The notes beneath the pieces are model-generated. The model worked only from the letters and a program-made list of their open reading frames with translations, was not told where the DNA came from and did no database searches. Shown here piece after piece: positions 1-11,349 of a stretch of DNA of 11,349 nucleotides. The first letter of the stretch is position 1; the number at the start of each line of letters is the position of its first letter. Location: NCBI GenBank assembly GCA_030428695.1, contig JAUIEM010000333.1, forward strand, positions 1 to 11,349, read 5' to 3'. Origin of the DNA: a bacterium (GTDB taxonomy: Bacteria > Planctomycetota > J058 > JAJDCP01). Both the position numbers and the translations under genes were made by a program.

Positions 1-440
1 GCGGCGGCGACCAGCACGACCGCGCGGGCGACCGGCTCCGCCGGCAGCAGGGCCGCGCGCGCCGCGCGCCCGGCGGCGGGGTCGTCGCCGTGGAAGCGCT
101 GGAACACGAGGGGCGAGGCCTCGGCGTGTCCCGCGCTCGCCAGCGCCGCGCCCCAGACGAGCTTGGGCAGGCAGGGGTTCACCGCGCCGAAGGTCGCCGA
201 CTGGAACCCGGCGCGCCACGGCGCGTGGATCTGCGGCGTGAGCTCCGCGCCCGCCGGCGGGCCGCCGTGGACGAGCTGGCGCCAGTGCAGCGCGCTGGCG
301 GCGATCCACTCCGGCTCGTCGCTGTGCAGCTGGCCCTCGAGCGCGCGCGCCCGCGTCGCGCGGAGCGACACGAGCGCCACGGCGAAGGCGGCCGCGAGCA
401 GCGCCGCGGACAGCAGGCGGGACCGGCGAAGGCGCTCCAC
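1..440 (-). CDS. GT-C-like integral membrane protein, 5' part (3' end outside the window)
   Basis: An open minus-strand frame runs from a GTG at 440 to the left edge without a stop (146 codons seen). The product starts VERLRRSRLL, followed by a hydrophobic stretch at about residues 9-28 (LLSAALLAAAFAVALVSL), which fits a first membrane helix with positive residues on the inside. Next comes a loop with HSDEPEWIAASALHW (about residues 43-57) and later NPCLPKLVWGAAL (about 92-104). An acidic DE pair just after the first helix and an NP-x-PK-type segment are typical of the first extracytoplasmic loop of GT-C glycosyltransferases (ArnT/PMT, GT39), which move sugars from polyprenyl-phosphate donors. 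That assignment is a resemblance from reading, since only the N-terminus is present. The gene is transcribed divergently from the sulfatase-like gene. No clear Shine-Dalgarno sequence precedes the GTG, so the start is tentative. Confidence 0.6.
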   Translation of the reverse strand, partial: MERLRRSRLLSAALLAAAFAVALVSLRATRARALEGQLHSDEPEWIAASALHWRQLVHGGPPAGAELTPQIHAPWRAGFQSATFGAVNPCLPKLVWGAALASAGHAEASPLVFQRFHGDDPAAGRAARAALLPAEPVARAVVLVAA

Positions 441-486
441 GGCCGGCCACGATAGCGGCGCGCGACGGCGCGGCGCCAGCGCCCGC

Positions 487-492
487 TATACT
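487..492 (+). promoter_or_regulatory. Candidate -10 element (TATACT) of the sulfatase-family gene
   Basis: TATACT at 487-492 matches the TATAAT consensus at five of six positions and stands out in an otherwise almost pure G/C region. It lies in the 59-bp gap between divergent genes. The sulfatase ATG is at 500, seven bases after the hexamer, so transcription would begin at or next to the start codon and give a leaderless or nearly leaderless mRNA. This agrees with the lack of a Shine-Dalgarno sequence there. No convincing -35 hexamer is visible 16-18 bases upstream (GACGGC at 464-469 is poor). Single hexamers are weak evidence. Confidence 0.35.
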
Positions 493-499
493 CGCCGCG

Positions 500-1945
500 A
501 TGCCGCGCACGCCCCCGAACGCGCCCCGCGAGCCCGCCGCGTCGCGCCGCGCCGCCCCGCGCCGGCGGATCGTGGCCGCGCTGGCCCTCGCGGCCCTCGC
601 GCTGCAGGGGGCCTGTCGCGAAGAGCCGGTGCGCCCGCCGAACCTGCTGCTCGTCGTCCTCGACACGACCCGCGCCGACCGCATCGGGTGCTACGGCGCG
701 GGGCCCGGGGCCACGCCGGCGATCGACGCCCTGGCCGCTCGCGGGACGCGCTTCGCGAACGCCTACGCGCAGTCGTCGCTGACGCCCGTCTCGGCGGCGT
801 CCTTCCTGACCGGCGCGTGGCCCTTCCGCACGGGCATCCGCAGCCTGTTCGTCGTCTCCGAGGGCGAGCTGTCGGGCGACGTGACCAGCGTGTTCGAGGA
901 CCTGCGCGCCGCCGGCCGCGCGACGGGCGGCTTCGTCAGCGCGCGCCCGATGGGGGCGCACTACGGCCTCGACCGCGGCTTCGACGTGTACGAGGACGAG
1001 ATCCAGGACGCGCCGGGCGCGGGCACCGTGCGCCGCGCCGTGCAGCGGCGCGCGGAGGAGACGACCGAGCTGGCCCTGGCCTGGCTCGACGAGCACGCCG
1101 GCGGGCCCTTCGCCGCGCTCGTGCACTACTTCGACGCCCACGACGTCGCGCTGCTGCCCCCGGCCCCGTTCCTGGCCGAGCACGTGTCCTTCGAGCTGCC
1201 CGCCGGCCTGGGGCGCGAGCCCACCGTCGAGCAGGTGCGCGAGCTGTGGCGGACGCCGGAGCGCCGCCGCGAGGTCTACGCCGCCGAGGTCACGTACATG
1301 GACGACCAGGTGCGCCGCCTGCTCGAGCGCCTCGAGGTGCACGGCGCGCTCGAGAACACCATCGTGTGCGTGATCGCCGACCACGGCGAGTCGCTGGGCG
1401 AGCACGGCTTCTGGGACCACGGGATGCTGTGGGAGGAGCAGCTGCGCGTCCCGCTCCTCCTGGCCGGACCCGGCGTGCCCGCGGGCGCCGTCGTGGACGC
1501 GCGCGTGCGCCTGGTCGACCTGGCGCCGACGCTGGCCGAGCTGCTCGGCCTGGACGCGACCGGCGCGCGCCGCGACGGTGTCTCCGCCCTCGACCTGGCG
1601 CGCGGGGCCGCGCCGACCGTCGAGCCGCGCCCGCTGTACGCCGAGGTGCGCCACGCCGAGGGCGACCGCCTCGACCGCCCGCCGGCCCTGCACGCGGTGA
1701 CGCTGGGCGAGTGGAAGCTCGTGACCGGGCCCGGCGGCGCCGGCGCGCGCGTCTACGACCTCGACGCCGACCCCGGCGAGCTGCGCATGCTCGACCCCGC
1801 CCGCGACGACCGCGCCGCCCGCCACCTGGCCCTCCTGGAGGCCTGGGGCGCCTGGACCGACGGCGCCGCCCGCCTCGAAGGCGTCCCCGCCGACGTCCTC
1901 GACGACCTCCGCGAGCTCGGCTACCTCGGCACGGACGAGGAGTGA
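500..1945 (+). CDS. Sulfatase-like hydrolase/transferase of the alkaline phosphatase superfamily, probable exported lipoprotein, Thr at the nucleophile position
   Basis: The 481-residue product has an Arg-rich N-terminus, a hydrophobic stretch at 24-35 and LQGAC ending at Cys39. This looks like a lipoprotein signal, although Gln at -3 is unusual. The mature part starts with NLLLVVLDTTRADRIGCYG (48-66), in which Asp55 is the expected first metal ligand. The nucleophile segment TPVSAASFLTG (95-105) aligns with the sulfatase signature CxPSRAxLLTG, but Thr95 replaces the Cys/Ser that is converted to formylglycine. ADHGESLGEHG (293-303) supplies the second metal-binding Asp-His pair (Asp294, His295), with a further His307. 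EWKLVTGPGG near the C-terminus is the usual late strand. With Thr in this place the enzyme is more likely to act on phosphate or phosphodiester bonds, or as a transferase, as in EptA/LtaS-type enzymes, than as a formylglycine sulfatase. Its substrate is unknown. The neighbouring membrane glycosyltransferase-like gene hints at cell-surface work. It stops 30 bp before hsdM. Confidence 0.85.
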   Translation: MPRTPPNAPREPAASRRAAPRRRIVAALALAALALQGACREEPVRPPNLLLVVLDTTRADRIGCYGAGPGATPAIDALAARGTRFANAYAQSSLTPVSAASFLTGAWPFRTGIRSLFVVSEGELSGDVTSVFEDLRAAGRATGGFVSARPMGAHYGLDRGFDVYEDEIQDAPGAGTVRRAVQRRAEETTELALAWLDEHAGGPFAALVHYFDAHDVALLPPAPFLAEHVSFELPAGLGREPTVEQVRELWRTPERRREVYAAEVTYMDDQVRRLLERLEVHGALENTIVCVIADHGESLGEHGFWDHGMLWEEQLRVPLLLAGPGVPAGAVVDARVRLVDLAPTLAELLGLDATGARRDGVSALDLARGAAPTVEPRPLYAEVRHAEGDRLDRPPALHAVTLGEWKLVTGPGGAGARVYDLDADPGELRMLDPARDDRAARHLALLEAWGAWTDGAARLEGVPADVLDDLRELGYLGTDEE

Positions 1946-1948
1946 CCC
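1939..1948. repeat. Left copy of a 10-bp inverted repeat (GGAGTGACCC) bracketing the defence block
   Basis: GGAGTGACCC covers the last sense codon and the TGA stop of the sulfatase-family gene. Its exact reverse complement, GGGTCACTCC, occurs at 10727-10736 over the stop codon of the convergent TPM gene. The pair encloses the lower-GC restriction block. The match does not extend further inward or outward. Because both genes end in Glu-TGA, about six of the ten bases could coincide easily, so a link to insertion is only a suggestion. Confidence 0.3.
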
Positions 1949-1975
1949 CAAGCCTCAAGTGTGAACGGACCAGGC

Positions 1976-4126
1976 ATGAACCACAGCCAGATCGTGAGCT
2001 TCATCTGGGGCGTCGCGGACCTGATCCGCGACACCTTCAAGCGCGGCAAGTACCAGGACGTGATCCTGCCGCTGACCGTGCTGCGCCGCCTCGATTGCGT
2101 GCTCGCCCCCACCAAGCCGGAGGTCCTGGCGGTTCAGGCCAAGTACAAGGGCAAGATCGAGAACCTCGACCCGCAGCTCCGGCGGGCCTCGGGATTCGCC
2201 TTCTACAACACCTCTCGCTACGACTTCGAGAAGCTACTGGCCGACGCTCCGCACATCGCCCAGAACCTGCGCAACTACGTCGCGGGTTTTAGCCCCAACA
2301 TGCGCGAGGTGCTCGAGAAGTTCGACTTCGACAACACGATCTCGAAGCTGGACGAGGCCGGCATCCTGTATCAGGTCGTGCAGCGATTCGGCGATTCCAA
2401 GGTCAACCTGCATCCAGACCCGGATCAGGGGGGCGTCGACAACTTCACGATGGGCACGATCTTCGAAGAGCTCATCCGGAAGTTCAACGAGGCGCTGAAC
2501 GAGAATCCGGGTGAGCACTTCACGCCGCGAGACGTCGTCCACCTGATGGTCGACCTGATGCTCGCCGGAGACGAGGGGCGGCTCAACAAGGACGGGGCTG
2601 TGCTGAGCATCTACGACCCCTGCTGCGGCTCGGGCGGCATGCTCACGATCGCCAAGGAGCACATCACCGTTGGAGAGCGCCGCGAGGGCGAGCTCCACCA
2701 GCCCGCCGTGAACGCCGGCGCGGACGTTCACCTCTTCGGCCAGGAGGTCAATCCCGAGACCTGGGCGGTGAGCAAGGCCGATCTCTACATGAAGTCCATC
2801 GATGGACGAGACGCCGAGAAGATCGCGTTCGGGAGCGTCCTGTCGAACGACCGGCACTCGGGAACGGCGTTCGACTACATGATCGCCAATCCCCCCTACG
2901 GGAAGGACTGGAAGCGCGATCAGGACGCCGTGCGCGCGGAACACGACCGTGGCGCAGCCGGCCGCTTCGGTCCCGGCCTGCCGCGGATCAGTGATGGCCA
3001 GCTCCTGTTCCTCCTGCATATGCTCGCGCACACGAAGGAGCAAGCGCAGGGCGGCTCACGTGTCGCCATCATCATGAATGGCTCGCCGCTCTTTACTGGC
3101 GATGCCGGCAGCGGTGAGAGTGAGATCCGTCGTTGGATCCTCGAGAACGATCTGCTCGAGGCGCTCATCGCGCTGCCCGAGCAGCTCTTCTACAACACCG
3201 GCATCGCGACGTATGTGTGGGTGCTCACGAATCGGAAACGCCCCGAGAAGCGAGGGAAGGTCCAACTCATCGACGCATCCCACTTCGACCAGGAGGCGAA
3301 GCGGGGTCTGTTCAGCACCCTGATGCGCAAGACCCTTGGATCGAAGCGTCGAGAGATCCCTTTCGACAAGAAGCAGGACATCCTGCGGCTGCTGACCGAG
3401 TTCGAAGATGGCGCCACCCGCACCGTCGTCGAGAGCGGTGAGGAGCGGAAGGTGGTCGTCAGTCGCATCTACCCGACCACCCACTTCGGCTTCCGCAAGA
3501 TCACGGTCGAGCGGCCCCTGAAGCTGGACTTCCAGGCAAGCCCCGAACGGATCGCCCGACTGGAGGACGAACGCGCCTTCCGCAACCTGGCGGTATCGAA
3601 GAAGAAGGGCGCTGCCAAGGCGAAGGACGAAGAGGCAGGACGGGCACAGCAGGCGGCGATCCGTATGCTGCTCGGGGAGCTTCCGAAGGACCTGTATCTC
3701 GATCGCGCTGAGTTCGAGTCCGTGCTTGGGAAGGCGACTAAGCATGCCAAGCTCAAACTCGCCGCGCCGATCAAGAAGGCCATCCTCTCCGCGCTCTCCG
3801 ATCGCAACGAAGATGCCGAGACCTGTCGCGACAAGGACGGCCACCGTGAGCCGGATCCGGAGCTGCGCGACACGGAGAGCGTGCCCCTCGAGGAGGAGGT
3901 CGAGGCCTTCTTCGAGCGCGAAGTGAAGCCGCACGTGCCCAATGCGTGGATCGACACCTCTCGCCGGGACCCCCAGGACGGTGAGGTCGGTCTCGTGGGG
4001 TACGAGATCAACTTCAACCGGTACTTCTACGAGTACCGGCCGCCCCGGCCGCTCGAGGAGATCGAGGCGGACATCCAGGAGCTGGAGGAGGAGATCGTGG
4101 CCATGCTGAGGGAGGTCACCGGCTAG
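1976..4126 (+). CDS. hsdM: Type I restriction-modification methyltransferase subunit HsdM (N6-adenine)
   Basis: The product is 716 residues from ATG 1976. It opens with MNHSQIVSFIWGVADLIRD, the usual start of this family, and AGG of GGACCAGG lies just upstream. A GTG at 1961 would add five residues with no better ribosome site. The N-terminal helical HsdM_N domain covers about residues 1-165. GEHFTPRDVV (179-188) leads into the SAM-dependent methyltransferase fold. DPCCGSGG (214-221) is the SAM-binding motif I, and NPPY (305-308) is the catalytic motif IV of amino-methyltransferases that modify adenine N6. LIALPEQLFYNTGI marks the end of the core. A long C-terminal part follows, with a charged KKKGAAKAKDEEAGR linker and a final coiled-coil-like segment (EEIEADIQELEEEIVAML) likely to pack on HsdS. 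At 716 residues it belongs to the longer HsdM type. It works as an M2S complex with HsdS and joins HsdR for restriction. No promoter is evident in the 30 bp after the sulfatase gene. Confidence 0.95.
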   Translation: MNHSQIVSFIWGVADLIRDTFKRGKYQDVILPLTVLRRLDCVLAPTKPEVLAVQAKYKGKIENLDPQLRRASGFAFYNTSRYDFEKLLADAPHIAQNLRNYVAGFSPNMREVLEKFDFDNTISKLDEAGILYQVVQRFGDSKVNLHPDPDQGGVDNFTMGTIFEELIRKFNEALNENPGEHFTPRDVVHLMVDLMLAGDEGRLNKDGAVLSIYDPCCGSGGMLTIAKEHITVGERREGELHQPAVNAGADVHLFGQEVNPETWAVSKADLYMKSIDGRDAEKIAFGSVLSNDRHSGTAFDYMIANPPYGKDWKRDQDAVRAEHDRGAAGRFGPGLPRISDGQLLFLLHMLAHTKEQAQGGSRVAIIMNGSPLFTGDAGSGESEIRRWILENDLLEALIALPEQLFYNTGIATYVWVLTNRKRPEKRGKVQLIDASHFDQEAKRGLFSTLMRKTLGSKRREIPFDKKQDILRLLTEFEDGATRTVVESGEERKVVVSRIYPTTHFGFRKITVERPLKLDFQASPERIARLEDERAFRNLAVSKKKGAAKAKDEEAGRAQQAAIRMLLGELPKDLYLDRAEFESVLGKATKHAKLKLAAPIKKAILSALSDRNEDAETCRDKDGHREPDPELRDTESVPLEEEVEAFFEREVKPHVPNAWIDTSRRDPQDGEVGLVGYEINFNRYFYEYRPPRPLEEIEADIQELEEEIVAMLREVTG

Positions 4127-4134
4127 GAATTTTG

Positions 4135-4170
4135 TAAATGTCGGCGGATAGCAAAATTTGCCGACATTTA
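4135..4170. promoter_or_regulatory. Inverted repeat IR1, probable AbiEi operator (distal copy)
   Basis: TAAATGTCGGC (4135-4145) and GCCGACATTTA (4160-4170) are perfect 11-bp inverted arms around a 14-bp spacer. The inner core TGTCGGC-N14-GCCGACA is repeated exactly, with the same spacer length, 43 bp downstream. The stretch is AT-rich compared with the genes on either side. AbiEi antitoxins are known to repress their own operon by binding two inverted repeats and bending the DNA, so an operator role is the best reading. As RNA the repeat could also fold into a hairpin behind hsdM, but no U-run follows to make a classical terminator. Confidence 0.65.
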
Positions 4171-4174
4171 TCTA

Positions 4175-4181
4175 TGTCGGA
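4175..4181. repeat. Extra half-site TGTCGGA next to IR2
   Basis: TGTCGGA at 4175-4181 directly abuts the left arm of IR2 (TGTCGGC, 4182-4188), giving a tandem pair of heptamers that differ at one base. It lies between the two inverted repeats in the same orientation as their left arms. It could be an auxiliary binding site or a trace of repeat duplication. Confidence 0.4.
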
Positions 4182-4209
4182 TGTCGGCACTTGCAAGGAT
4201 CCGCCGACA
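4182..4209. promoter_or_regulatory. Inverted repeat IR2, probable AbiEi operator (proximal copy)
   Basis: TGTCGGC (4182-4188) and GCCGACA (4203-4209) repeat the arms of IR1 with an identical 14-bp spacer. The spacer sequence differs from that of IR1 except for a TTGC core, and here includes the palindrome CTTGCAAG (4190-4197). The 43-bp step between repeats is about four helical turns, which would place two bound proteins on the same DNA face. The right arm extended inward (ATCCGCCGACA, 4199-4209) is also the exact complement of the extended left arm of IR1 (TGTCGGCGGAT, 4139-4149). The candidate -35 lies inside the spacer, so binding here should block RNA polymerase. Confidence 0.65.
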
Positions 4210-4220
4210 AATTCCATAGT
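4191..4220 (+). promoter_or_regulatory. Candidate promoter of the abiE-hsdS-hsdR unit
   Basis: TTGCAA (4191-4196) and CATAGT (4215-4220) each match four of six consensus positions with an 18-bp spacer. The pair overlaps IR2, as expected for a repressed promoter. Initiation would fall at about 4227-4228, directly on the proposed GTG start of the antitoxin gene. The hexamers are weak, and other AT-rich hexamers in 4128-4220 could serve instead. Confidence 0.35.
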
Positions 4221-4227
4221 ACGAGGT

Positions 4228-4830
4228 GTGAAGGAACTGACGGAAGCCAGCCTGAGGAGAGCCGGTATCGGGGCGTTCTTCCGTCCGCGGGACGTACAGA
4301 GCCTGGGCGTCTCCCACTATCAGATCCAGCGTCTGGTCGAGGCGGGCGCCGTGGAGAAGCTGGGATTCGGCCTGTACCGCCTGGTGGAGGTCGAGCCCAC
4401 CGAGCTCGAGACCGTGGCCATGGTGGCGGCCGCCGTTCCGGGAGCGATCGTCTGCCTCCTGACCGCTCTCGGCGTCCACGGCATCGGCACCCAGGTTCCA
4501 GCGGACGTCTGGATCGCAATCGACCGCAAGGCGCGCAAGCCGCGCAAGGTCCCCGCGAGGCTGAAGATCGTCCGCTTCTCCGGAGTGATGCTCACCTACG
4601 GGGTTGTCCAGCAAACAATGCTCGGCGTCCCCGTATCCATCACCTCCCCGGCACGAACCGTGGTGGATTGCTTCCGCTACCGGAACAAGATTGGCATCGA
4701 CGTTGCCATGGAGGCGCTTCGGGACGCGGTTCGCTTGCGCATCACAACCATCAGGGAGATCGAGAGGGCGGCCGAGGTCTGCCGGGCACGCACTGTCATG
4801 CGCTCATACCTCGAGGTCTTCTCGGCATGA
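4228..4830 (+). CDS. abiEi: AbiEi-like type IV antitoxin and probable autorepressor
   Basis: The product is 200 residues from GTG 4228. Residues about 12-52 (GIGAFFRPRDVQSLGVSHYQ, then a QRLVEAGAVEKLGFGLYRL segment) form the N-terminal winged helix-turn-helix of the AbiEi_4 type, with the GLYRL wing. The C-terminal part contains PADVWIAIDRKARK and a strongly basic segment, then SPARTVVDCFRYRNKIG (about 140-156), the signature stretch of the AbiEi C-terminal domain, which neutralises the toxin and contributes a charged DNA-facing surface. In this family the antitoxin does not bind the toxin stably but counters its action, and it represses the operon. The frame stays open upstream to 4138, and an ATG lies at 4174, but those codons would run through the operator repeats and encode no family sequence, so GTG 4228 is preferred. 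GAGG at 4223-4226 is too close to be a good ribosome site, which is compatible with leaderless initiation. The stop overlaps the toxin start (ATGA). Confidence 0.85.
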   Translation: MKELTEASLRRAGIGAFFRPRDVQSLGVSHYQIQRLVEAGAVEKLGFGLYRLVEVEPTELETVAMVAAAVPGAIVCLLTALGVHGIGTQVPADVWIAIDRKARKPRKVPARLKIVRFSGVMLTYGVVQQTMLGVPVSITSPARTVVDCFRYRNKIGIDVAMEALRDAVRLRITTIREIERAAEVCRARTVMRSYLEVFSA

Positions 4831-5741
4831 CGCGCAATCCGCGCGACCTGGCCGCGTCGATCCACCGCCGGTTGCTCAACGGCGCAAGGGAGCGCCACGA
4901 AGACCCTCAATTCGTCCTGCAACGCTACGCGGCGGAGCGGTTCCTGTTCCGCCTGGGAGAATCCCGCCACCGCGAGAACTTCGTCCTCAAGGGAGCCATG
5001 CTGTTCAGTCTGTGGGGCGGGTCGCTCTACCGGCCCACACGTGATCTCGACTTCACTGGATACGGGAGCGACGAAGTGGACGAGCTGTTGGGCCGCGTCC
5101 GCGACATTTGCTCGACCCAGGTGCCCGATGACGGGATCACCTTCGACCTCTCGGAGCTCCGGGCCGAGCCGATCCGGGAGGAGGTCGAGTACGGCGGCCT
5201 GCGAATCCAGTTCAAGGCCCGTTTGGGACGCGCGGAGGTCCGCATGCAGATCGATGTGGGATTCGGCAATGCGATCGAACCAGGACCGGAAGAGGCGGAG
5301 TACCCACCTCTGCTGGACGCTCCCGCCCCGCGCATTCGCGCCTACCCCACGGTTGCCGTCGTCGCGGAGAAGCTGCACGCTATGACGGTCCTCGGCGAAC
5401 GCAACAGCCGGTACAAGGACTTCTACGACCTCTACGTGCTCACCGAAAACATCGAGTTCGACGCACGGACTCTCGCGAGCTCGATCCGCGCGACTTTCGA
5501 TCGGCGCCGAACCACGATCGACCCCACGATCCCCATCGCGCTCACTTCCGCGTTCTATGCCGATGCCCACCGATCACGGCAGTGGCGGACCTACATCGAG
5601 CGCAATTCGCTCCCGAGTGTTCCGAGCGACTTCGATCAAGTGGGCGAACGGCTTAGACGATTCCTGCTTCCGGTTTGGGATGGCATGGGCACGAGGGATG
5701 CCCTCGAAGGTGTATGGCCGCCAAAGGGGGGATGGGAGTGA
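4827..5741 (+). CDS. abiEii: AbiEii/AbiGii-family nucleotidyltransferase toxin
   Basis: The product has 304 residues and starts at ATG 4827 inside the antitoxin stop (ATGA), so translation is coupled. FVLKGAMLFSLWGG (52-65) is the nucleotidyltransferase motif I in the KGA-type variant seen in one branch of the family, where many members have KGGT. RPTRDLDF (69-76) supplies the metal-binding Asp73 and Asp75. AEKLHAMTVLG (180-190) holds Glu181-Lys182, and RYKDFYDL (195-202) is the conserved KDFYD motif. The C-terminal half is helical with SRQWRTYIERN. AbiEii-type enzymes are pol-beta-fold nucleotidyltransferases. AbiEii was described as a GTP-binding bacteriostatic toxin, and related MenT enzymes add nucleotides to tRNA acceptor ends. 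The target here is not deducible. All catalytic motifs are intact, so the gene is probably functional. Its end overlaps the start region of hsdS, which is unusual for a stand-alone abiE pair and ties the toxin to the restriction genes. Confidence 0.88.
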   Translation: MTRNPRDLAASIHRRLLNGARERHEDPQFVLQRYAAERFLFRLGESRHRENFVLKGAMLFSLWGGSLYRPTRDLDFTGYGSDEVDELLGRVRDICSTQVPDDGITFDLSELRAEPIREEVEYGGLRIQFKARLGRAEVRMQIDVGFGNAIEPGPEEAEYPPLLDAPAPRIRAYPTVAVVAEKLHAMTVLGERNSRYKDFYDLYVLTENIEFDARTLASSIRATFDRRRTTIDPTIPIALTSAFYADAHRSRQWRTYIERNSLPSVPSDFDQVGERLRRFLLPVWDGMGTRDALEGVWPPKGGWE

Positions 5742-7144
5742 CCGCGGACAATGCCGGCGAGGTGCCCGATGGGCTTAGCGCGCTCGAAGAGACACGTTCG
5801 AGGCGATTCAGGCCGTATCCGGAGTACACCGACTCGGGAGTATCGTGGCTGGGTCGGATCCCTTCACATTGGAAGGTGAGGAGATCGCGCTCGACCGTCA
5901 CGGGGTGTCAGAACGGAACCTGGGGAGACGAACCCGACGGGATGCACGACATGATTTGCGTCCGCGTCGCAGACTTCGATCGAGTTCGCCTCCGCGTGAG
6001 GTTGGAAGACCAGACACTACGCTCGATTGAACCGAGGGCTGCCCAGGCGCGCCAGCTAGGCAGGGGTGACCTGCTCCTGGAGAAGTCGGGTGGCGGCGAG
6101 AAGCAGCCCGTTGGCGCAGTCGTCATGTATGATCACGGTGAGCCTGCGGTCTGCTCGAACTTCGTCGCGCGACTGTCTATTGCCGACGGCAATGATCCGC
6201 GATTCCTGACATACCTGCACGCCGCCCTCTACGCAGCTCGCGTCAACACGCGGTCGATCAAGCAAAGCACGGGGATCCAGAATCTCGACAGCACGAGCTA
6301 CCTGAACGAACGCGTTGGACTACCTGAGCGCCAAGAGCAGGTCATGATCGCTACCTTCCTTGACCACGAGACCTCGAAGGTCGATGAGCTGGTCGAGAAA
6401 AAAGAACGGCTGATGGAGCTACTCCAGGAGAAGCGCACCGCCCTCATCACCCATGCCGTTACCCGCGGACTCGACCCGACATTCCCAATGAAGGAGTCCG
6501 GCATCGAGTGGATAGGTGAGATACCGGCGCACTGGGAGGTGGGCCCAGTCTACGCAAGGTACGAAGTAGCGCTTGGGAAGATGCTCGACGCGAAGAAGGT
6601 CACTGGGGAGCACTTGGGACCGTACATCCGAAACGTCGACGTGCAGTGGGATACGGTCAACACGGATGATCTCCCGGAGATGGACTTCTCTCCATCGGAA
6701 CGTGAGAGGTATGGCCTCCGCGGCGGTGACCTACTTGTCTGTGAAGGCGGTGAAGTCGGTAGAACGGCGCTATGGACTATCGACACCGGGAAGTACTTCT
6801 ATCAGAAGGCCATACACCGCGTGCGACCCCGATCGCGTGATGAAGAGCCGCGGTACTTCTTCTACCTGATGTACGCGCTCGCGAAGCGTGGAGTGTTCGT
6901 CGCAGGGGGAAACCCAAACACGATCGACCACCTGACTGCAGTGCAGCTTAGGCACTATCGCATTCCCTTTGCTCCAATCGTTGAGCAACGCGCCATCGCC
7001 GGATTTCTCGACTGCGAGACGGCAGGGATCGACGCCCTTGTCGCCAGAATGCGCGAGGCAATCGGCTGCCTCAGGGAGTTTCGCACCGCCCTCATCTCCG
7101 CCGCGGTCACCGGCAAGATAGACGTCCGCGAGGAGGTGCAATGA
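5732..7144 (+). CDS. hsdS: Type I restriction-modification specificity subunit HsdS
   Basis: The product is 470 residues from ATG 5732, preceded by AAAGGGGGG. GTG 5738 (GTGA overlap with the toxin stop) and ATG 5714 are alternative starts. The protein is a tandem duplication. SGVSWLGRIPSHWKV near residue 40 matches SGIEWIGEIPAHWEV near residue 255. The helical conserved region near 195-250 (ATFLDHETSKVDELVEKKE, then EKRTALITHAVTRG) matches the C-terminal one (AGFLDCETAGIDALVARM, then EFRTALISAAVTGKI). Between them lie two different target-recognition domains, about 55-195 and 270-410, so the subunit should read a bipartite DNA site with two unlike half-sequences. The long helices act as the ruler between them and bind two HsdM. 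Key residues for the DNA target cannot be read off, so the site is unknown. The stop overlaps the hsdR start (ATGA). No disabling mutation is seen. Confidence 0.93.
   Translation: MGVTADNAGEVPDGLSALEETRSRRFRPYPEYTDSGVSWLGRIPSHWKVRRSRSTVTGCQNGTWGDEPDGMHDMICVRVADFDRVRLRVRLEDQTLRSIEPRAAQARQLGRGDLLLEKSGGGEKQPVGAVVMYDHGEPAVCSNFVARLSIADGNDPRFLTYLHAALYAARVNTRSIKQSTGIQNLDSTSYLNERVGLPERQEQVMIATFLDHETSKVDELVEKKERLMELLQEKRTALITHAVTRGLDPTFPMKESGIEWIGEIPAHWEVGPVYARYEVALGKMLDAKKVTGEHLGPYIRNVDVQWDTVNTDDLPEMDFSPSERERYGLRGGDLLVCEGGEVGRTALWTIDTGKYFYQKAIHRVRPRSRDEEPRYFFYLMYALAKRGVFVAGGNPNTIDHLTAVQLRHYRIPFAPIVEQRAIAGFLDCETAGIDALVARMREAIGCLREFRTALISAAVTGKIDVREEVQ
6434..6448 (+). repeat. 15-bp direct repeat in hsdS, first copy (second at 7082-7096)
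   Basis: CGCACCGCCCTCATC occurs at 6434-6448 and again at 7082-7096, exactly 648 bp apart (216 codons). The copies encode RTALI in the two conserved helical regions of HsdS. Identity at DNA level beyond the protein need could allow recombination between the halves, deleting or swapping a target-recognition domain in frame. Confidence 0.6.
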
Positions 7145-10100
7145 GCCCTGTGATTTCCGAACGCGCCTTCGAAGAAGCGATCGAGTGCGCGCTGCTGCAG
7201 CACGGACCCGATGCCTGTCCGGGCGATGCAACCACTGTGCGCGAGTCAACGCCGCCGTACGGCGAGCAACACGTTCCCGGAGGCTACCTCAGGCGCCGAG
7301 CGGAAGACTACGACCGCGGTCTCTGCCTCATCCCGACCGACGTCCTGGACTTCCTCCTCGCCACGCAGCCGAAGGAGTGGGAGAAGCTCAAGCAGCACCA
7401 CGGGGGAGACGTGAAGGCTCGGTTCCTCGGGCGTCTCTCCCGCGAGATCGGCCGGCGCGGCGCCCTCGATATCCTCCGTAACGGCATCAAGGACTCGGGC
7501 TGCAGGTTCCAGCTCGCGTACTTTCGGCCTGCGAGCGGGCTCAACCAGGAGCTGCAGCGTCTGCACGGAGCCAACTTCTTCGCGGTAGCGCGCCAGCTTC
7601 GGTACAGCGAGAAGGGCGAACAGAGCCTCGACCTCGCGCTGTTCCTGAATGGGCTCCCCATCTTCACGGCCGAGCTCAAGAACCCGCTCAACGGCCAGGA
7701 CATCGAGGATGCGGTCCGTCAGTACCGGAACGACCGCGATCCGCGCGAACCGCTCTTCGCCTACGGGCGATGCCTCGCCCACTTCGCCGTAGACCCCGAG
7801 ATGGTATTCGTCACGACCAAGCTCGCCGGGGCGAAGACCCGTTTCCTGCCCTTCAACCGAGGTCGATTCGGCGGAGCCGGCAATCCACCGGTACCACCCA
7901 CCCAGCAGGGCTACCCGACCGACTATCTGTGGGAGAGGATCTGGGCGAGGGACAGCGTGCTCGACCTGGTCCGCCAGTTCATCCACGAGGTCGAGGACGA
8001 GGACGACAAGGGACGCAAGACCGGCAAGCGCTTCCTGATCTTCCCCCGCTACCAGCAACTCGACTGCGTACGGGGACTCGTCGGACACGCTCGCGAGCAC
8101 GGCCCAGGCGAGCGATACCTGATCCAGCACTCGGCCGGAAGCGGCAAGAGCTTCACCATCGCGTGGCTCGCCCATCAGCTTTCGGTGCTGCACGATGCGG
8201 CCGACCGCAGGGTCTTCGACTCGATCGTCGTGGTGACCGACCGCCGCGTCCTCGACCGGCAGCTCCAGCGCACGATCCGCCAGTTCGAGCAGACCCTGGG
8301 TGTCGTGGAGAACATCGACCAGACATCTCGCCAGCTGCGGGAGGCTCTGGAGGCGGGACGCACGATCATCGTCACGACGCTTCAGAAGTTCCCCGTGATC
8401 GCCGAGCAGATTGGCCAGCTTCCGGGCCAGCGGTTCGCCCTGGTCGTCGACGAGGCGCACTCCTCGCAGTCAGGAGAGAGCACGAAGAGCCTCAAGGCTG
8501 TCCTGGCCGCAGGCGACCTCGAGCAGGCGGAACGGGAGGAGGCCGGCGCGGAGACGCCTGAGGAGGAACTGGAGAACCGGGTCCTCGAGGAGATCAAGAG
8601 CCGCGGTCGGCTGCCGAACCTCTCGACCTTCGCCTTCACGGCCACCCCAAAGCCGAAGACCCTCGAGCTCTTCGGCAGGAAGCGCGCGGACGGGAAGTTC
8701 GAGCCGTTCCACCTCTACAGCATGCGGCAGGCGATCGAGGAGGGGTTCATCCTCGACGTGCTCGCGAACTACACGACCTACAAGGCCTACTGGCGTTTAC
8801 TGAAGAAGATCGAGGACGACCCGCGCTACGAGAAGCGCAAGGCCGAGGCGATGCTCAAGGCCTTCGTCGAACTCCATCCGCATGCCATCAACGAGAAGAT
8901 CGGCATCTGTGTCGAGCACTTTGCCGCGCAGGTAGCGACCGCCATCGGAGGCCGTGCCAAGGCGATGATCGTCACCCGCTCACGGCTCCACGCGGTGCGA
9001 TACAAGCTCGCCCTGGACCGCTACCTGGCGGAGAAGGGGCACCCCTGGAAGAGCCTGGTCGCCTTCTCGGGCACCGTGAAGGACGGCGGGGATGCGTACA
9101 CCGAGTCCGGCATGAACTCGGCTGGTCACGACCGTGTGATCGGTGAGCGCCAGACCGCAGCAGAATTCGAGAAGCAGGAGTACCGCTTCCTCGTCGTTGC
9201 CAACAAGTTCCAGACCGGGTTCGACCAGCCGCTGCTCCACACGATGTACGTGGACAAGAAGCTCGGCGGCGTGGGCGCGGTGCAGACCCTCTCTCGCCTG
9301 AACCGCACGCACCCCGGCAAGAAGGCCACCTGCGTCCTCGACTTCGCCAACGAAGCCGAGGAGATCAAGAGAGCCTTCGAGCCCTACTACGAGACGTCCC
9401 TCCTCTCGGAGGAAACCGATCCGAACCTGCTCTACGAGGTGCAGGGCCGGCTCCTCGACTTCGGTGTTTTTACTGCGGACGACGTGGAGGACTTCGCCCG
9501 CATCTACTTCGACGGCAAGGCCACCCAGGACCGGCTCTACGCGGTCCTGGAACCCACTCGGCAGCGATTCGGTGACCTAGCCCCTGACGAGGGTCGCGAC
9601 TTTCGCGGGCAGCTCACCGACTATGTCCGACTGTACGCCTTCCTCTCGCAAGTGCTGACCTTCGCCGATCCGGACCTCGAGAAGCTGTACGTCTTTGTGC
9701 GCTACCTCAAGCGGCTGCTTCCGGCCGACCGCGAGGAGCTTCCGCGCGAGGTCCAGCAGAACATCGACATGGAGTCCTACCGGGTCCAGCAGAGCAGTCG
9801 GGGGAAGATCGCGCTCGAGCGCCAGGCGGGGCAGCTGGATCCAGTGGGATCGAAGCCGCGGGGCGGCGGCGGTGACGACGATCTGGAAGCCCTGTCCCAG
9901 ATCATCGCCGCCCTGAACGAACGCTTCGGCCTGAACCTAGGCCCCGAGCACCGCGTCACGCTCGAGCACATTCGCGACGCGCTGGACTCGGACACCGGTC
10001 TCGATGCCAGCGCCCGGGTGAACACGCGCGAGAACGTCCGCCTGACGTTCGACCCCAAGGTCGAGGACAAGATCCAGGAGATCGTCGAGACCAACTTCGA

Positions 10101-10686
10101 CCTCTACAAGCGGATCACGGACGACCCCGACTTCGGCCGCGCCCTGAAGAACTTCCTCTTCGACGACTATATCCGCCGCCACCGGCGGGCTGAGGAGCTC
10201 CTCAAGCTGCAGGAGTCGAAGACCCTGGAATTCAAATCGAGCCTGCGCTGGAGCCTGAAGGAGGACCGCAAGGACGACAAGCACGTGACCCACGCCGCGC
10301 TCAAGACGATCGCTGCGTTCCTCAACACCGAGGGCGGGGATCTCCTGATCGGGGTCGATGACGATGGGACGGTCCTCGGGCTGGAGCACGACCGACTGGA
10401 GAACGACGACAAGTTCATGCGTCATCTGGCACAGGTCGTGCGCAACGGCCTAGGAGACCGCGCAAGCACTTGCATCGACCCGAAGACACAGATCGTCGAG
10501 GGAAAGACAATCTGCCTAGTCAGCTGCCAGCGAAGCCCGGAACCTGTCCTGCTGCGATGGAAGGGCCTCGAGAGCAGTCCAGAGGGCGACCTCTTCGTGC
10601 GCAGCGGGCCTGGCAGCGTTCGCCTAGGGGTCGAAGACGCACGGAAGTACGTCGGGACGAGATTCGGCAACAGTCTGCGAACGTGA
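7141..10686 (+). CDS. hsdR: Type I restriction subunit HsdR with a C-terminal AlbA_2/Schlafen-type domain
   Basis: The 1181-residue product starts at ATG 7141 in the hsdS stop (ATGA). The N-terminal nuclease domain has a PD-(D/E)xK site: Asp164 in SLDLALF, then Glu178 and Lys180 in AELKNPL. The motor follows: Walker A HSAGSGKS (330-337), Walker B DEAH (437-440), motif III TATP (500-503), and the second RecA lobe with ANKFQTGFD (687-695) and LSRLNRT with Arg719 and Arg722. It pumps DNA past the complex using ATP and cuts on collision. A helical region ends near FDDYIRRHRR (about 1005-1015), where HsdR proteins of this type normally stop. The extra part has ESKTLEFKSS (1025-1034), AALKTIAAFLNTEGG, LLIGVDDDGTVLGL (1068-1081) and FVRSGPGSVRL near 1155, the pattern of AlbA_2 (Schlafen AlbA) domains. 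Glu1025, Glu1030 and Lys1032 match the E-x4-E-x-K of Schlafen nuclease cores. The frame is continuous across the junction, so this is a true fusion unless there is a sequencing error. Confidence 0.94.
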   Translation: MSPVISERAFEEAIECALLQHGPDACPGDATTVRESTPPYGEQHVPGGYLRRRAEDYDRGLCLIPTDVLDFLLATQPKEWEKLKQHHGGDVKARFLGRLSREIGRRGALDILRNGIKDSGCRFQLAYFRPASGLNQELQRLHGANFFAVARQLRYSEKGEQSLDLALFLNGLPIFTAELKNPLNGQDIEDAVRQYRNDRDPREPLFAYGRCLAHFAVDPEMVFVTTKLAGAKTRFLPFNRGRFGGAGNPPVPPTQQGYPTDYLWERIWARDSVLDLVRQFIHEVEDEDDKGRKTGKRFLIFPRYQQLDCVRGLVGHAREHGPGERYLIQHSAGSGKSFTIAWLAHQLSVLHDAADRRVFDSIVVVTDRRVLDRQLQRTIRQFEQTLGVVENIDQTSRQLREALEAGRTIIVTTLQKFPVIAEQIGQLPGQRFALVVDEAHSSQSGESTKSLKAVLAAGDLEQAEREEAGAETPEEELENRVLEEIKSRGRLPNLSTFAFTATPKPKTLELFGRKRADGKFEPFHLYSMRQAIEEGFILDVLANYTTYKAYWRLLKKIEDDPRYEKRKAEAMLKAFVELHPHAINEKIGICVEHFAAQVATAIGGRAKAMIVTRSRLHAVRYKLALDRYLAEKGHPWKSLVAFSGTVKDGGDAYTESGMNSAGHDRVIGERQTAAEFEKQEYRFLVVANKFQTGFDQPLLHTMYVDKKLGGVGAVQTLSRLNRTHPGKKATCVLDFANEAEEIKRAFEPYYETSLLSEETDPNLLYEVQGRLLDFGVFTADDVEDFARIYFDGKATQDRLYAVLEPTRQRFGDLAPDEGRDFRGQLTDYVRLYAFLSQVLTFADPDLEKLYVFVRYLKRLLPADREELPREVQQNIDMESYRVQQSSRGKIALERQAGQLDPVGSKPRGGGGDDDLEALSQIIAALNERFGLNLGPEHRVTLEHIRDALDSDTGLDASARVNTRENVRLTFDPKVEDKIQEIVETNFDLYKRITDDPDFGRALKNFLFDDYIRRHRRAEELLKLQESKTLEFKSSLRWSLKEDRKDDKHVTHAALKTIAAFLNTEGGDLLIGVDDDGTVLGLEHDRLENDDKFMRHLAQVVRNGLGDRASTCIDPKTQIVEGKTICLVSCQRSPEPVLLRWKGLESSPEGDLFVRSGPGSVRLGVEDARKYVGTRFGNSLRT

Positions 10687-10693
10687 GAGTTCC

Positions 10694-10718
10694 GTCGGGC
10701 GTGCTCGCGACGCCCGGC
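10694..10718. terminator. Weak hairpin between convergent hsdR and TPM genes
   Basis: CGGGCGT (10696-10702) and ACGCCCG (10710-10716) pair perfectly around a 7-base loop, and a T-G wobble plus a G-C pair extend the stem to nine. It sits 7 bp after the hsdR stop and 11 bp before the TPM stop, where a bidirectional terminator would be expected. Neither side is followed by a T-run, so it is not a classical intrinsic terminator. Confidence 0.35.
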
Positions 10719-10726
10719 TTCGTCAA

Positions 10727-10736
10727 GGGTCACTCC
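10727..10736. repeat. Right copy of the 10-bp inverted repeat bracketing the defence block
   Basis: GGGTCACTCC here is the reverse complement of GGAGTGACCC at 1939-1948. It covers the stop codon of the minus-strand TPM gene. It marks the point where the base composition returns to that of the left flank. Confidence 0.3.
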
Positions 10737-11349
10737 GCGCGGACGATCAGGCGGTCGGGGATCTCGTTGCGGTCGCCTTCCTTCCAGGGGAACTCGGTGG
10801 CGAGGAGGTCGCCGGCGCGGTGGATGGCTTCGACGAGGCCGTCGCGCAGGGAGCCGCGCCGGATGCCGGCGAGGACGGCGGCGTCGACGTCGACCCAGAA
10901 GTCCTCGGGCACCTTCGCGGCGATGCCCTCGTCGGCGAGGACGACGACGCGGCGCTCGAGCAGGCTGACGAAGAGCAGCACGCCCGTCGCGGCCTCGGTG
11001 CGGTGCAGGCCGTGGGCGTGGAACTCCTGGAAGGCCTGCTCCTCGGCGACCGCGGTGGCGCGGTGCTCGGGCACGAACAGGCGCTGGAAGTCGGGCAGCG
11101 CGCGGGCGAGCACCCAGCCGAGGGCGCCGAGCGCCACCTGGGCGAGCACGACCAGGGCGGGCTGGTCCCACGGCAGGGCGGGGCCCAGCAGGGCGGTGCC
11201 GAGCAGCGCCACGACGGCGGCGGCGAGCCACTTCGCGCCGGGGTGCGGGTCGGAGCGCTCGACCACGACGGGCAGGATCTCGCCGACCGTGCGGCGCTCG
11301 GCCGCCGCCAGCGCGGCGTGCACGGCCTCGCGGTCGCGCTCGCCCAGCA
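10730..11349 (-). CDS. TPM-domain membrane protein (COG3762/YgcG-like), 5' end probably outside or at the window edge
   Basis: The minus-strand frame is open from the right edge to the TGA at 10730-10732. A GTG at 11321-11323 could start a 197-residue product, but the codons upstream read LGERDREAVHAALAAAERRT, which continues the amphipathic first helix of TPM domains, so the real start is at or beyond the edge. TVGEILPVVVERSDPHPGAK is the first strand of the TPM fold. Two hydrophobic segments follow (counted from the GTG): WLAAAVVALLGTALLGPAL at 32-50 and ALVVLAQVALGALGWVLA at 56-73. The rest of the domain includes TGVLLFVSLLERRVVVLADEGI and DGLVEAIHRAGDLL. COG3762 proteins are membrane-bound, commonly encoded beside LemA and a second TPM protein (COG1512), and their biochemical role is poorly defined; plant TPM relatives help photosystem repair. 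The gene converges on hsdR and has the same extreme GC at third positions as the sulfatase-like gene, so it belongs to the host background. Confidence 0.78.
   Translation of the reverse strand, partial: LGERDREAVHAALAAAERRTVGEILPVVVERSDPHPGAKWLAAAVVALLGTALLGPALPWDQPALVVLAQVALGALGWVLARALPDFQRLFVPEHRATAVAEEQAFQEFHAHGLHRTEAATGVLLFVSLLERRVVVLADEGIAAKVPEDFWVDVDAAVLAGIRRGSLRDGLVEAIHRAGDLLATEFPWKEGDRNEIPDRLIVRAE

Follow-up and report, generated by a model that had tools for sequence, protein, structure and literature searches.

A Schlafen/AlbA_2 domain, a putative RNase, fused to the C-terminus of the type I restriction subunit HsdR

A Schlafen/AlbA_2 domain behind the HsdR core

The stretch of DNA analysed here, referred to below as the window, comprises 11,349 nucleotides from a bacterium of the Planctomycetota (assembly GCA_030428695.1, contig JAUIEM010000333.1, positions 1 to 11,349) and holds a complete plus-strand operon for a type I restriction-modification system with the gene order hsdM-abiEi-abiEii-hsdS-hsdR. 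Its last gene encodes an HsdR protein that carries a Schlafen/AlbA_2 domain at its C-terminus. An earlier note, made from the letters alone, had proposed this fusion, and it proved to be real: the hsdR frame is unbroken from the ATG at 7141 to the TGA at 10684-10686, joining the HsdR core to the AlbA_2 domain without an intervening stop codon, and Pfam assigns, in this order, HSDR_N (residues 144-230), SWI2_SNF2 (305-544), a T1R_D3-like domain (678-730) and SLFN_AlbA_2 (1025-1161). The profile of the latter, PF04326, scores 67.1 bits (expectation value, E, 2.7e-18) in the whole protein and 72.8 bits (4.5e-20) in the tail alone, at a gathering cut-off of 25.3, and is covered from position 1 to 116 of 118, which makes the domain a member of the Schlafen/AlbA_2 family.

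The domain sits directly behind the helical C-terminal part of HsdR, at a natural boundary. Domain-less relatives in the loci L035, L041 and L074 (L numbers denote loci, G numbers genomes) match the window protein as far as residue 1017-1018 and end within eight residues thereafter, bearing out the expectation that HsdR proper ends near residue 1015. An AlphaFold model of full-length HsdR had a mean predicted local distance difference test (pLDDT) score of 58.7 and a predicted template-modelling (pTM) score of 0.42 and was not used for placing the AlbA_2 domain.

The core has the hallmarks of a type I HsdR as far as they can be read from the sequence, namely a PD-(D/E)xK nuclease, a superfamily 2 motor, and hsdM and hsdS in the same operon. 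Since neither the nuclease residues D164, E178 and K180 nor the Walker A lysine K336 and the DEAH box vary across 40 aligned relatives, the restriction part appears to be intact. The protein reaches only 212 bits with the NCBIfam hsdR model TIGR00348, below its curated cut-off of 284.55, and the best PADLOC REase_I model covers residues 144-752, indicating that this HsdR belongs to a divergent, poorly modelled subfamily. The AlbA_2 tail is matched by no NCBIfam or PADLOC model at E <= 1e-3.

Within the operon (Table 1), abiEi and abiEii as well as hsdS and hsdR overlap by four bases, the ATG of the second gene lying over the stop codon of the first. The real start of hsdS is probably downstream of the TTG at 5675. 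The scans of abiEii were run on 4830-5738, one codon short at the 5' end.

Table 1. Features of the window and of two related loci
Feature	Position	Strand	Basis
Sulfatase gene, 5' of the hsd operon	500-1945		Pfam scan of window proteins
hsdM, type I methyltransferase subunit, 721 residues	1961..4126	+	Pfam N6_Mtase 2.5e-55, HsdM_N 2.2e-24; PADLOC MTase_I PDLC03029 1.4e-263, residues 6-720
abiEi, antitoxin/regulator of an AbiE type IV toxin-antitoxin pair inside the hsd operon	4138..4830	+	Pfam AbiEi_4 8.4e-7; PADLOC AbiEi 2.8e-64
abiEii, nucleotidyltransferase toxin	4827..5741	+	Pfam AbiEii 7.6e-48; PADLOC 4.5e-111
hsdS, specificity subunit	5675..7144	+	Pfam Methylase_S 1.1e-12; PADLOC Specificity_I 5.7e-109, from residue 44
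hsdR fused to AlbA_2, 1181 residues	7141..10686	+	Pfam; PADLOC REase_I 1.4e-33, residues 144-752
HsdR core, residues 1-1008: nuclease D164/E178/K180, Walker A K336, DEAH 437-440, helical C-terminal part	7141..10164	+	Pfam, alignment
SLFN_AlbA_2, residues 1025-1161, with E1025, E1030, K1032, D1074	10213..10623	+	Pfam 2.7e-18, residue counts, predicted fold
TPM-domain gene	3' of hsdR	-	Pfam scan
GmrSD-AlbA_2 genes (further examples P0241-P0360)	L003:1427-3757; L050:3861-6197		

Distribution, origin and conservation of the fusion

With residues 940-1181 as query, 1487 protein clusters matched at E <= 1e-3, and the 120 of these that were listed, 83-93% identical, all combine PF04326 with one or more HsdR-type domains. 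A genome scan with one genome per species yielded 91 relatives, 80 of which were kept as 78 loci, and in 63 of the 78 the AlbA_2 match extends over at least half its length. The listed clusters and these loci together exclude a chance event or an assembly error. A search for the stand-alone domain returned 1001 proteins; among the 120 listed, most gave the impression, by their length and the size of their contigs, of being HsdR fragments, although a genuine split gene may be among them. The earlier note had allowed that the architecture might already be widespread, catalogued and established as non-catalytic. It is indeed common in sequence databases, but no catalogued family with such a role was found. 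By title and beginning of abstract we found no paper on an HsdR-AlbA_2 fusion, in a search that covered few subscription papers and had a bacterial Schlafen preprint outside its reach. Each of the parts is known already, while the HsdR-AlbA_2 architecture and the logic proposed for it below appear, on this weak negative evidence, to be new.

Prevalence was gauged in a census of four draws, 1384 whole genomes in all. Scoring took in no more than two first-look candidates from each genome, and some matches were truncated by short contigs. An HsdR relative at E <= 1e-100 occurred in 171 genomes, and in 20 of them (10/52, 1/58, 1/28 and 8/33 by draw) the match ran through the AlbA_2 domain, to residue 1175-1177; four of these 20 (G001, G007, G002 and G006) are the chosen centres of the draws. 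The 20 spanning relatives are at least 68% identical over their best piece. Relatives at 34-59% identity never matched beyond residue 1068 and mostly ended by 1020, and the only two that passed residue 1060, G215 and G193, carry the S24 tail described below. Two further relatives are G013 (67%, locus L082), which is devoid of AlbA_2, and G058, whose 76% identical fragment spans residues 675-888 only and says nothing about the domain. HsdR relatives in plasmid records (762) and phage records (3) are all below 60% identity; the 15 of the 762 that were listed and all three from phages end by query residue 1039, with no AlbA_2 domain seen.

The core alignment holds 59 rows, including the window, that are aligned over most of the core. 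Letters are present at column 1025 in 53 of them, the others being L035, L041, L064, L065, L067 and L068; the partial locus L074, outside the 59, is likewise domain-less. In a maximum-likelihood tree built by a quick search from 93 HsdR cores, rooted at the midpoint, supported by the Shimodaira-Hasegawa-like approximate likelihood-ratio test (SH-aLRT) only and with long branches flagged among domain-less rows, all 59 rows labelled AlbA_2 fall within one clade of 71 rows (SH-aLRT 100), the sister of which, L082, is 67% identical and lacks the domain. Counting rows without a readable domain as changes, the raw tree has 11 label changes, nine of them forced. Five of the 12 unlabelled rows in the clade are cut by contig ends, four have the domain behind a broken frame, and three (L035 together with L041, and L074) are domain-less. 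The four with broken frames (L059, L060, L069 and L077) were rejected as domain losses, as tblastn finds AlbA_2 behind the core in each, and sequencing error is perhaps the cause of their broken frames. With the caveat of the midpoint root, we interpret this history as one gain and two losses within a single HsdR clade. Rows with the domain are named after 12 phyla plus Aminicenantes, nearly all of them metagenome-assembled, so that single labels may err; this spread over 12 phylum names suggests horizontal transfer of the fusion.

Along the protein, identity to the window residue averages 0.75 for the AlbA_2 domain; the corresponding values are 0.68 for the N-terminus, 0.77 for the nuclease, 0.82 and 0.78 for the two motor parts and 0.69 for the helical part. 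Gene by gene, counting loci in which the match covers at least half of the gene, the median identity is 76.7% for AlbA_2 (63 loci), 76.0% for the HsdR core (75 loci, a median slightly lowered by four distant domain-less relatives) and 71.8% for HsdM (44 loci), compared with 54.3% for AbiEi (41 loci), 42.7% for AbiEii (32 loci) and 34.5% for HsdS (53 loci). As its identity matches that of the core and exceeds those of AbiE and HsdS, the AlbA_2 domain evolves with the motor, unlike the exchangeable parts of the operon.

Catalytic carboxylates, fold and related C-terminal tails

The E-x4-E-x-K motif had previously been likened to the core of animal Schlafens, and the likeness extends to the full carboxylate triad. 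In a profile alignment to rat SLFN13 (5yd0), E1025, E1030 and D1074 (codons 10213-10215, 10228-10230 and 10360-10362) pair residue by residue with chain positions 218, 223 and 261, which, after subtraction of 13, correspond to SLFN13 E205, E210 and D248. These are the catalytic carboxylates of SLFN13, whose E205A and E210A variants show no RNase activity (PMC5862951; published findings are given here as they stand in the available excerpts of the papers concerned). The fused domain thus presents, by alignment and residue counts, the E/E/D triad of the Schlafen RNases (SLFN11/12/13/14, SAMD9). Among aligned relatives, E1025 is kept in 53/53, E1030 in 53/53 and D1074 in 52/52, while the neighbouring D1073 is alanine in 39/52. 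The combination E/E/K/D is complete in 119 of the 120 listed HsdR-AlbA_2 proteins; in the remaining one, a lysine replaces the second glutamate.

For background we sampled 30 AlbA_2 loci from 60 genomes of one phylum, a sample that favours high-scoring domains. Twenty-five could be aligned, one of them HsdR itself, which was left out; nine were cut by the local alignment, and 15 rows were readable at all positions. Eight of the 15 are E/E/D, six have E, P or N in place of the aspartate, and one has A for the second glutamate. At the sequence level, then, both glutamates are common in AlbA_2 domains (14/15), the aspartate less so. In some mammals, SAMD9L is reported to have the triad aspartate replaced by asparagine.

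A model of the domain predicts the overall fold of the Schlafen core that had been anticipated, in the form of a single lobe. The two-lobed, U-shaped core seen in SLFN proteins only is absent, as the fusion has one AlbA_2 domain; by available reports, the animal core of SLFN13/11/14 forms a clamp from two lobes. In SAMD9 and SAMD9L, the AlbA-type tRNase domain lies near the N-terminus rather than at the C-terminus, and its first glutamate precedes the second by 12 residues instead of five; cleavage of tRNA-Phe is reported for these proteins, whereas the HsdR fusion is known from sequence and model only. The AlbA_2 profile also matches PDB chain 9ylu (E 2e-4), known by its molecule name, CbCash.

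AlbA_2 tails are not confined to HsdR. L003, 5' of hsdM, and L050, between hsdM and hsdS, each encode a GmrSD_N protein of 776-778 residues with a C-terminal AlbA_2 domain. With this tail as query, 459 clusters matched at E <= 1e-3; the 120 listed all have PF04326 and mostly PF03235, and 118 of them have E/E/K/D, the other two showing N for D. In a tree of AlbA_2 domains comprising 21 HsdR rows, 16 of the 120 GmrSD rows and 20 others, the HsdR and GmrSD groups form one clade each (98/97 and 100/99). The two clades and L105 group together at moderate support (84/92), the placement of L105 being flagged for its long branch. Related AlbA_2 domains, alike in residues and C-terminal place, thus end two unrelated restriction enzymes, the GmrSD family being modification-dependent in its characterised members. 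A text search of a paper on GmrSD (PMC4619093) found no mention of AlbA, Schlafen or PF04326. Near this subfamily stands the AlbA_2 domain of L105 itself (L105:1141-1947), a small protein in which it follows two probable membrane segments, judged by eye. L003 further encodes an AlbA_2 protein with HATPase_c_4 (L003:3867-5054) between GmrSD-AlbA_2 and hsdM, which brings the AlbA_2 domains in this one defence locus to three.

Another group of HsdR proteins bears a different module at the same place. Eighteen relatives were taken from the census, partly for their long open frames, so that the six with this module give no frequency; in these six (L079, L080, L083-L086; 45-47% identical) an S24-type tail begins at about residue 1015-1020. 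Pfam finds Peptidase_S24 in 3/3 of the tailed proteins scanned (E 4.6e-9 to 5.2e-8), and the blocks AAAGAF, SMEP and YTVKRY, which we take to be the cleavage site, serine and lysine of LexA/UmuD, are invariant in 6/6. A phmmer search of the PDB with one S24 tail found no LexA or UmuD, its single match (E 0.075) being a designed protein, so that the assignment rests on Pfam and the alignment. In the core tree, the six rows and the tail-less L090 form a clade apart from the AlbA_2 clade. In our reading, HsdR proteins of this group have a C-terminal socket that accepts add-on modules, and the S24-tailed ones possibly switch themselves off by self-cleavage upon DNA damage. If they do, this would directly link the SOS response to restriction alleviation.

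Possible functions of the fused domain and accessory genes

Based on the results above, we give roughly an even chance to the reading that the fused single-lobe domain acts as a metal-dependent RNase and plausibly cleaves tRNA in the manner of SAMD9 and the SLFN proteins. This reading leans on the fusion itself, which arose in one clade and was long retained, on the invariance of the carboxylates, on the predicted fold and on the position behind the helical part. Inside the assembled restriction complex, the domain would be held silent. Prolonged engagement, or a block or overload of restriction such as a DNA-mimic anti-restriction protein might cause, would free it to cut RNA, and the resulting halt of translation would serve as a second line of defence. 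The wider picture, in which the type I motors of an entire clade come with their own Schlafen tRNase, freed when a phage blocks restriction, uniting DNA attack and translation shutdown in one protein, and in which the HsdR C-terminus is a socket for unrelated modules (AlbA_2 here, a LexA-like self-cleaving one in another clade), is more tentative, and we regard it as possible only.

The strongest alternative, doubtful in our estimate, is a non-catalytic role, in which AlbA_2 would tether HsdR to DNA or structured nucleic acid (ends, forks or nascent RNA) and tune translocation or target choice. Several observations favour it or counsel caution over the RNase: the SAMD9 structure 7ksp, among the fold matches of the domain model, was crystallised with DNA; AlbA2 has been called a DNA/RNA binder with multimerising properties (PMC11221667, available excerpt); the basic residues K1032, R1036, K1055 and R1154 are invariant in the AlbA_2 alignment; both glutamates recur in other AlbA_2 domains; and the AlbA_2-HATPase protein of L003 also keeps all three carboxylates (35-row alignment). 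However, mere binding requires no full triad, D1074 is constant in the fusion but variable in the background sample, and single-glutamate substitutions suffice to inactivate SLFN13 as an RNase.

That the C-terminal slot instead houses a control module, sensing a signal such as damage, an inhibitor or a nucleotide and switching restriction on or off as the S24/LexA-type tail might by self-cleavage, strikes us as unlikely. The S24 tails with their invariant blocks occupy the same position, but they belong to a different clade, which makes a shared role an analogy, and the triad of AlbA_2 points to chemistry on nucleic acid. Still less probable is an autoregulator that binds the hsd promoter and limits expression, as annotated for AlbA_2 transcription regulators: one source labels many proteins matching the domain 'predicted HTH transcriptional regulator', most of which look like HsdR fragments by length, and AbiEi of the same operon is itself from a regulator family, yet the protein ends 20 residues past the domain with no helix-turn-helix (HTH) and no further Pfam match, unlike the regulator layout of AlbA_2 followed by HTH or HATPase/HTH, and a repressor fused to a subunit of a large complex would, in our judgement, be a poor design. 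A neutral passenger from accidental read-through can practically be dismissed, since the domain, though dispensable in the hosts of L035/L041 and L074, is otherwise retained, with its acidic residues invariant, in rows that bear 12 phylum names, and changes about as fast as the motor.

The trigger logic of the proposed RNase is borrowed, by analogy, from PrrC, which associates physically with the type IC system EcoprrI and remains silent until T4 Stp inhibits restriction, whereupon it cuts tRNA-Lys (PMC2610378, PMC12707154, available excerpts). A type I restriction complex and a translation-blocking RNase would thus share one locus in both cases, in ours within one polypeptide. PrrC, however, is encoded by a separate gene and combines an ATP-binding cassette (ABC) ATPase with another nuclease domain, while the candidate RNase here is a Schlafen/AlbA_2 domain fused to HsdR; Pfam detected no ABC-ATPase family in the five operon proteins at E <= 1e-3. 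Functionally, the fused domain may resemble PrrC without belonging to its family. The nearest printed idea that we found, in the excerpts available, comes from a 2026 survey of bacteriophage exclusion (BREX) systems, in which Schlafen RNases with a minimal histidine kinase and a winged HTH protein are proposed as backup effectors (PMC12839542). There, too, a Schlafen RNase would back up a DNA-targeting defence, but from separate genes linked to BREX loci, not as a covalent C-terminal domain of a type I restriction motor.

If AlbA_2 indeed cuts RNA, PrrC-type guarding of restriction would have evolved twice, the second time through an unrelated nuclease that is covalently fused. A bacterial restriction enzyme would then offer a close functional parallel to the antiviral Schlafen/SAMD9 RNase core, and the silencing of a suicide RNase by a type I complex would become directly testable.

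The operon may even hold two translation-blocking modules, as MenT toxins, which are relatives of AbiEii, are reported to modify tRNA acceptor ends. In 48 loci, hsdM and hsdS precede hsdR; AbiEi or AbiEii lies between hsdM and hsdR in 41 of these, and both do in 32. AlbA_2 is likewise seen in 41 of the 48, accompanied by AbiE in 37 and without it in four (L013, L036, L050 and L056). The converse, AbiE but no AlbA_2, occurs in L035 and L041; L027 and L053 are truncated ahead of the AlbA_2 position, and both features are absent from the distant L064, L065 and L068. Across the loci of the genome scan, the AbiE genes diverge much faster than hsdM and hsdR. Other accessory genes vary by locus and include GmrSD, AAA_14/DUF4143 and an IrrE-like peptidase with DUF4411. 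A further cluster of 13 genes, 11 of them between hsdS and hsdR, is Fic-related, as scanned in one member (L011:7829-8995).
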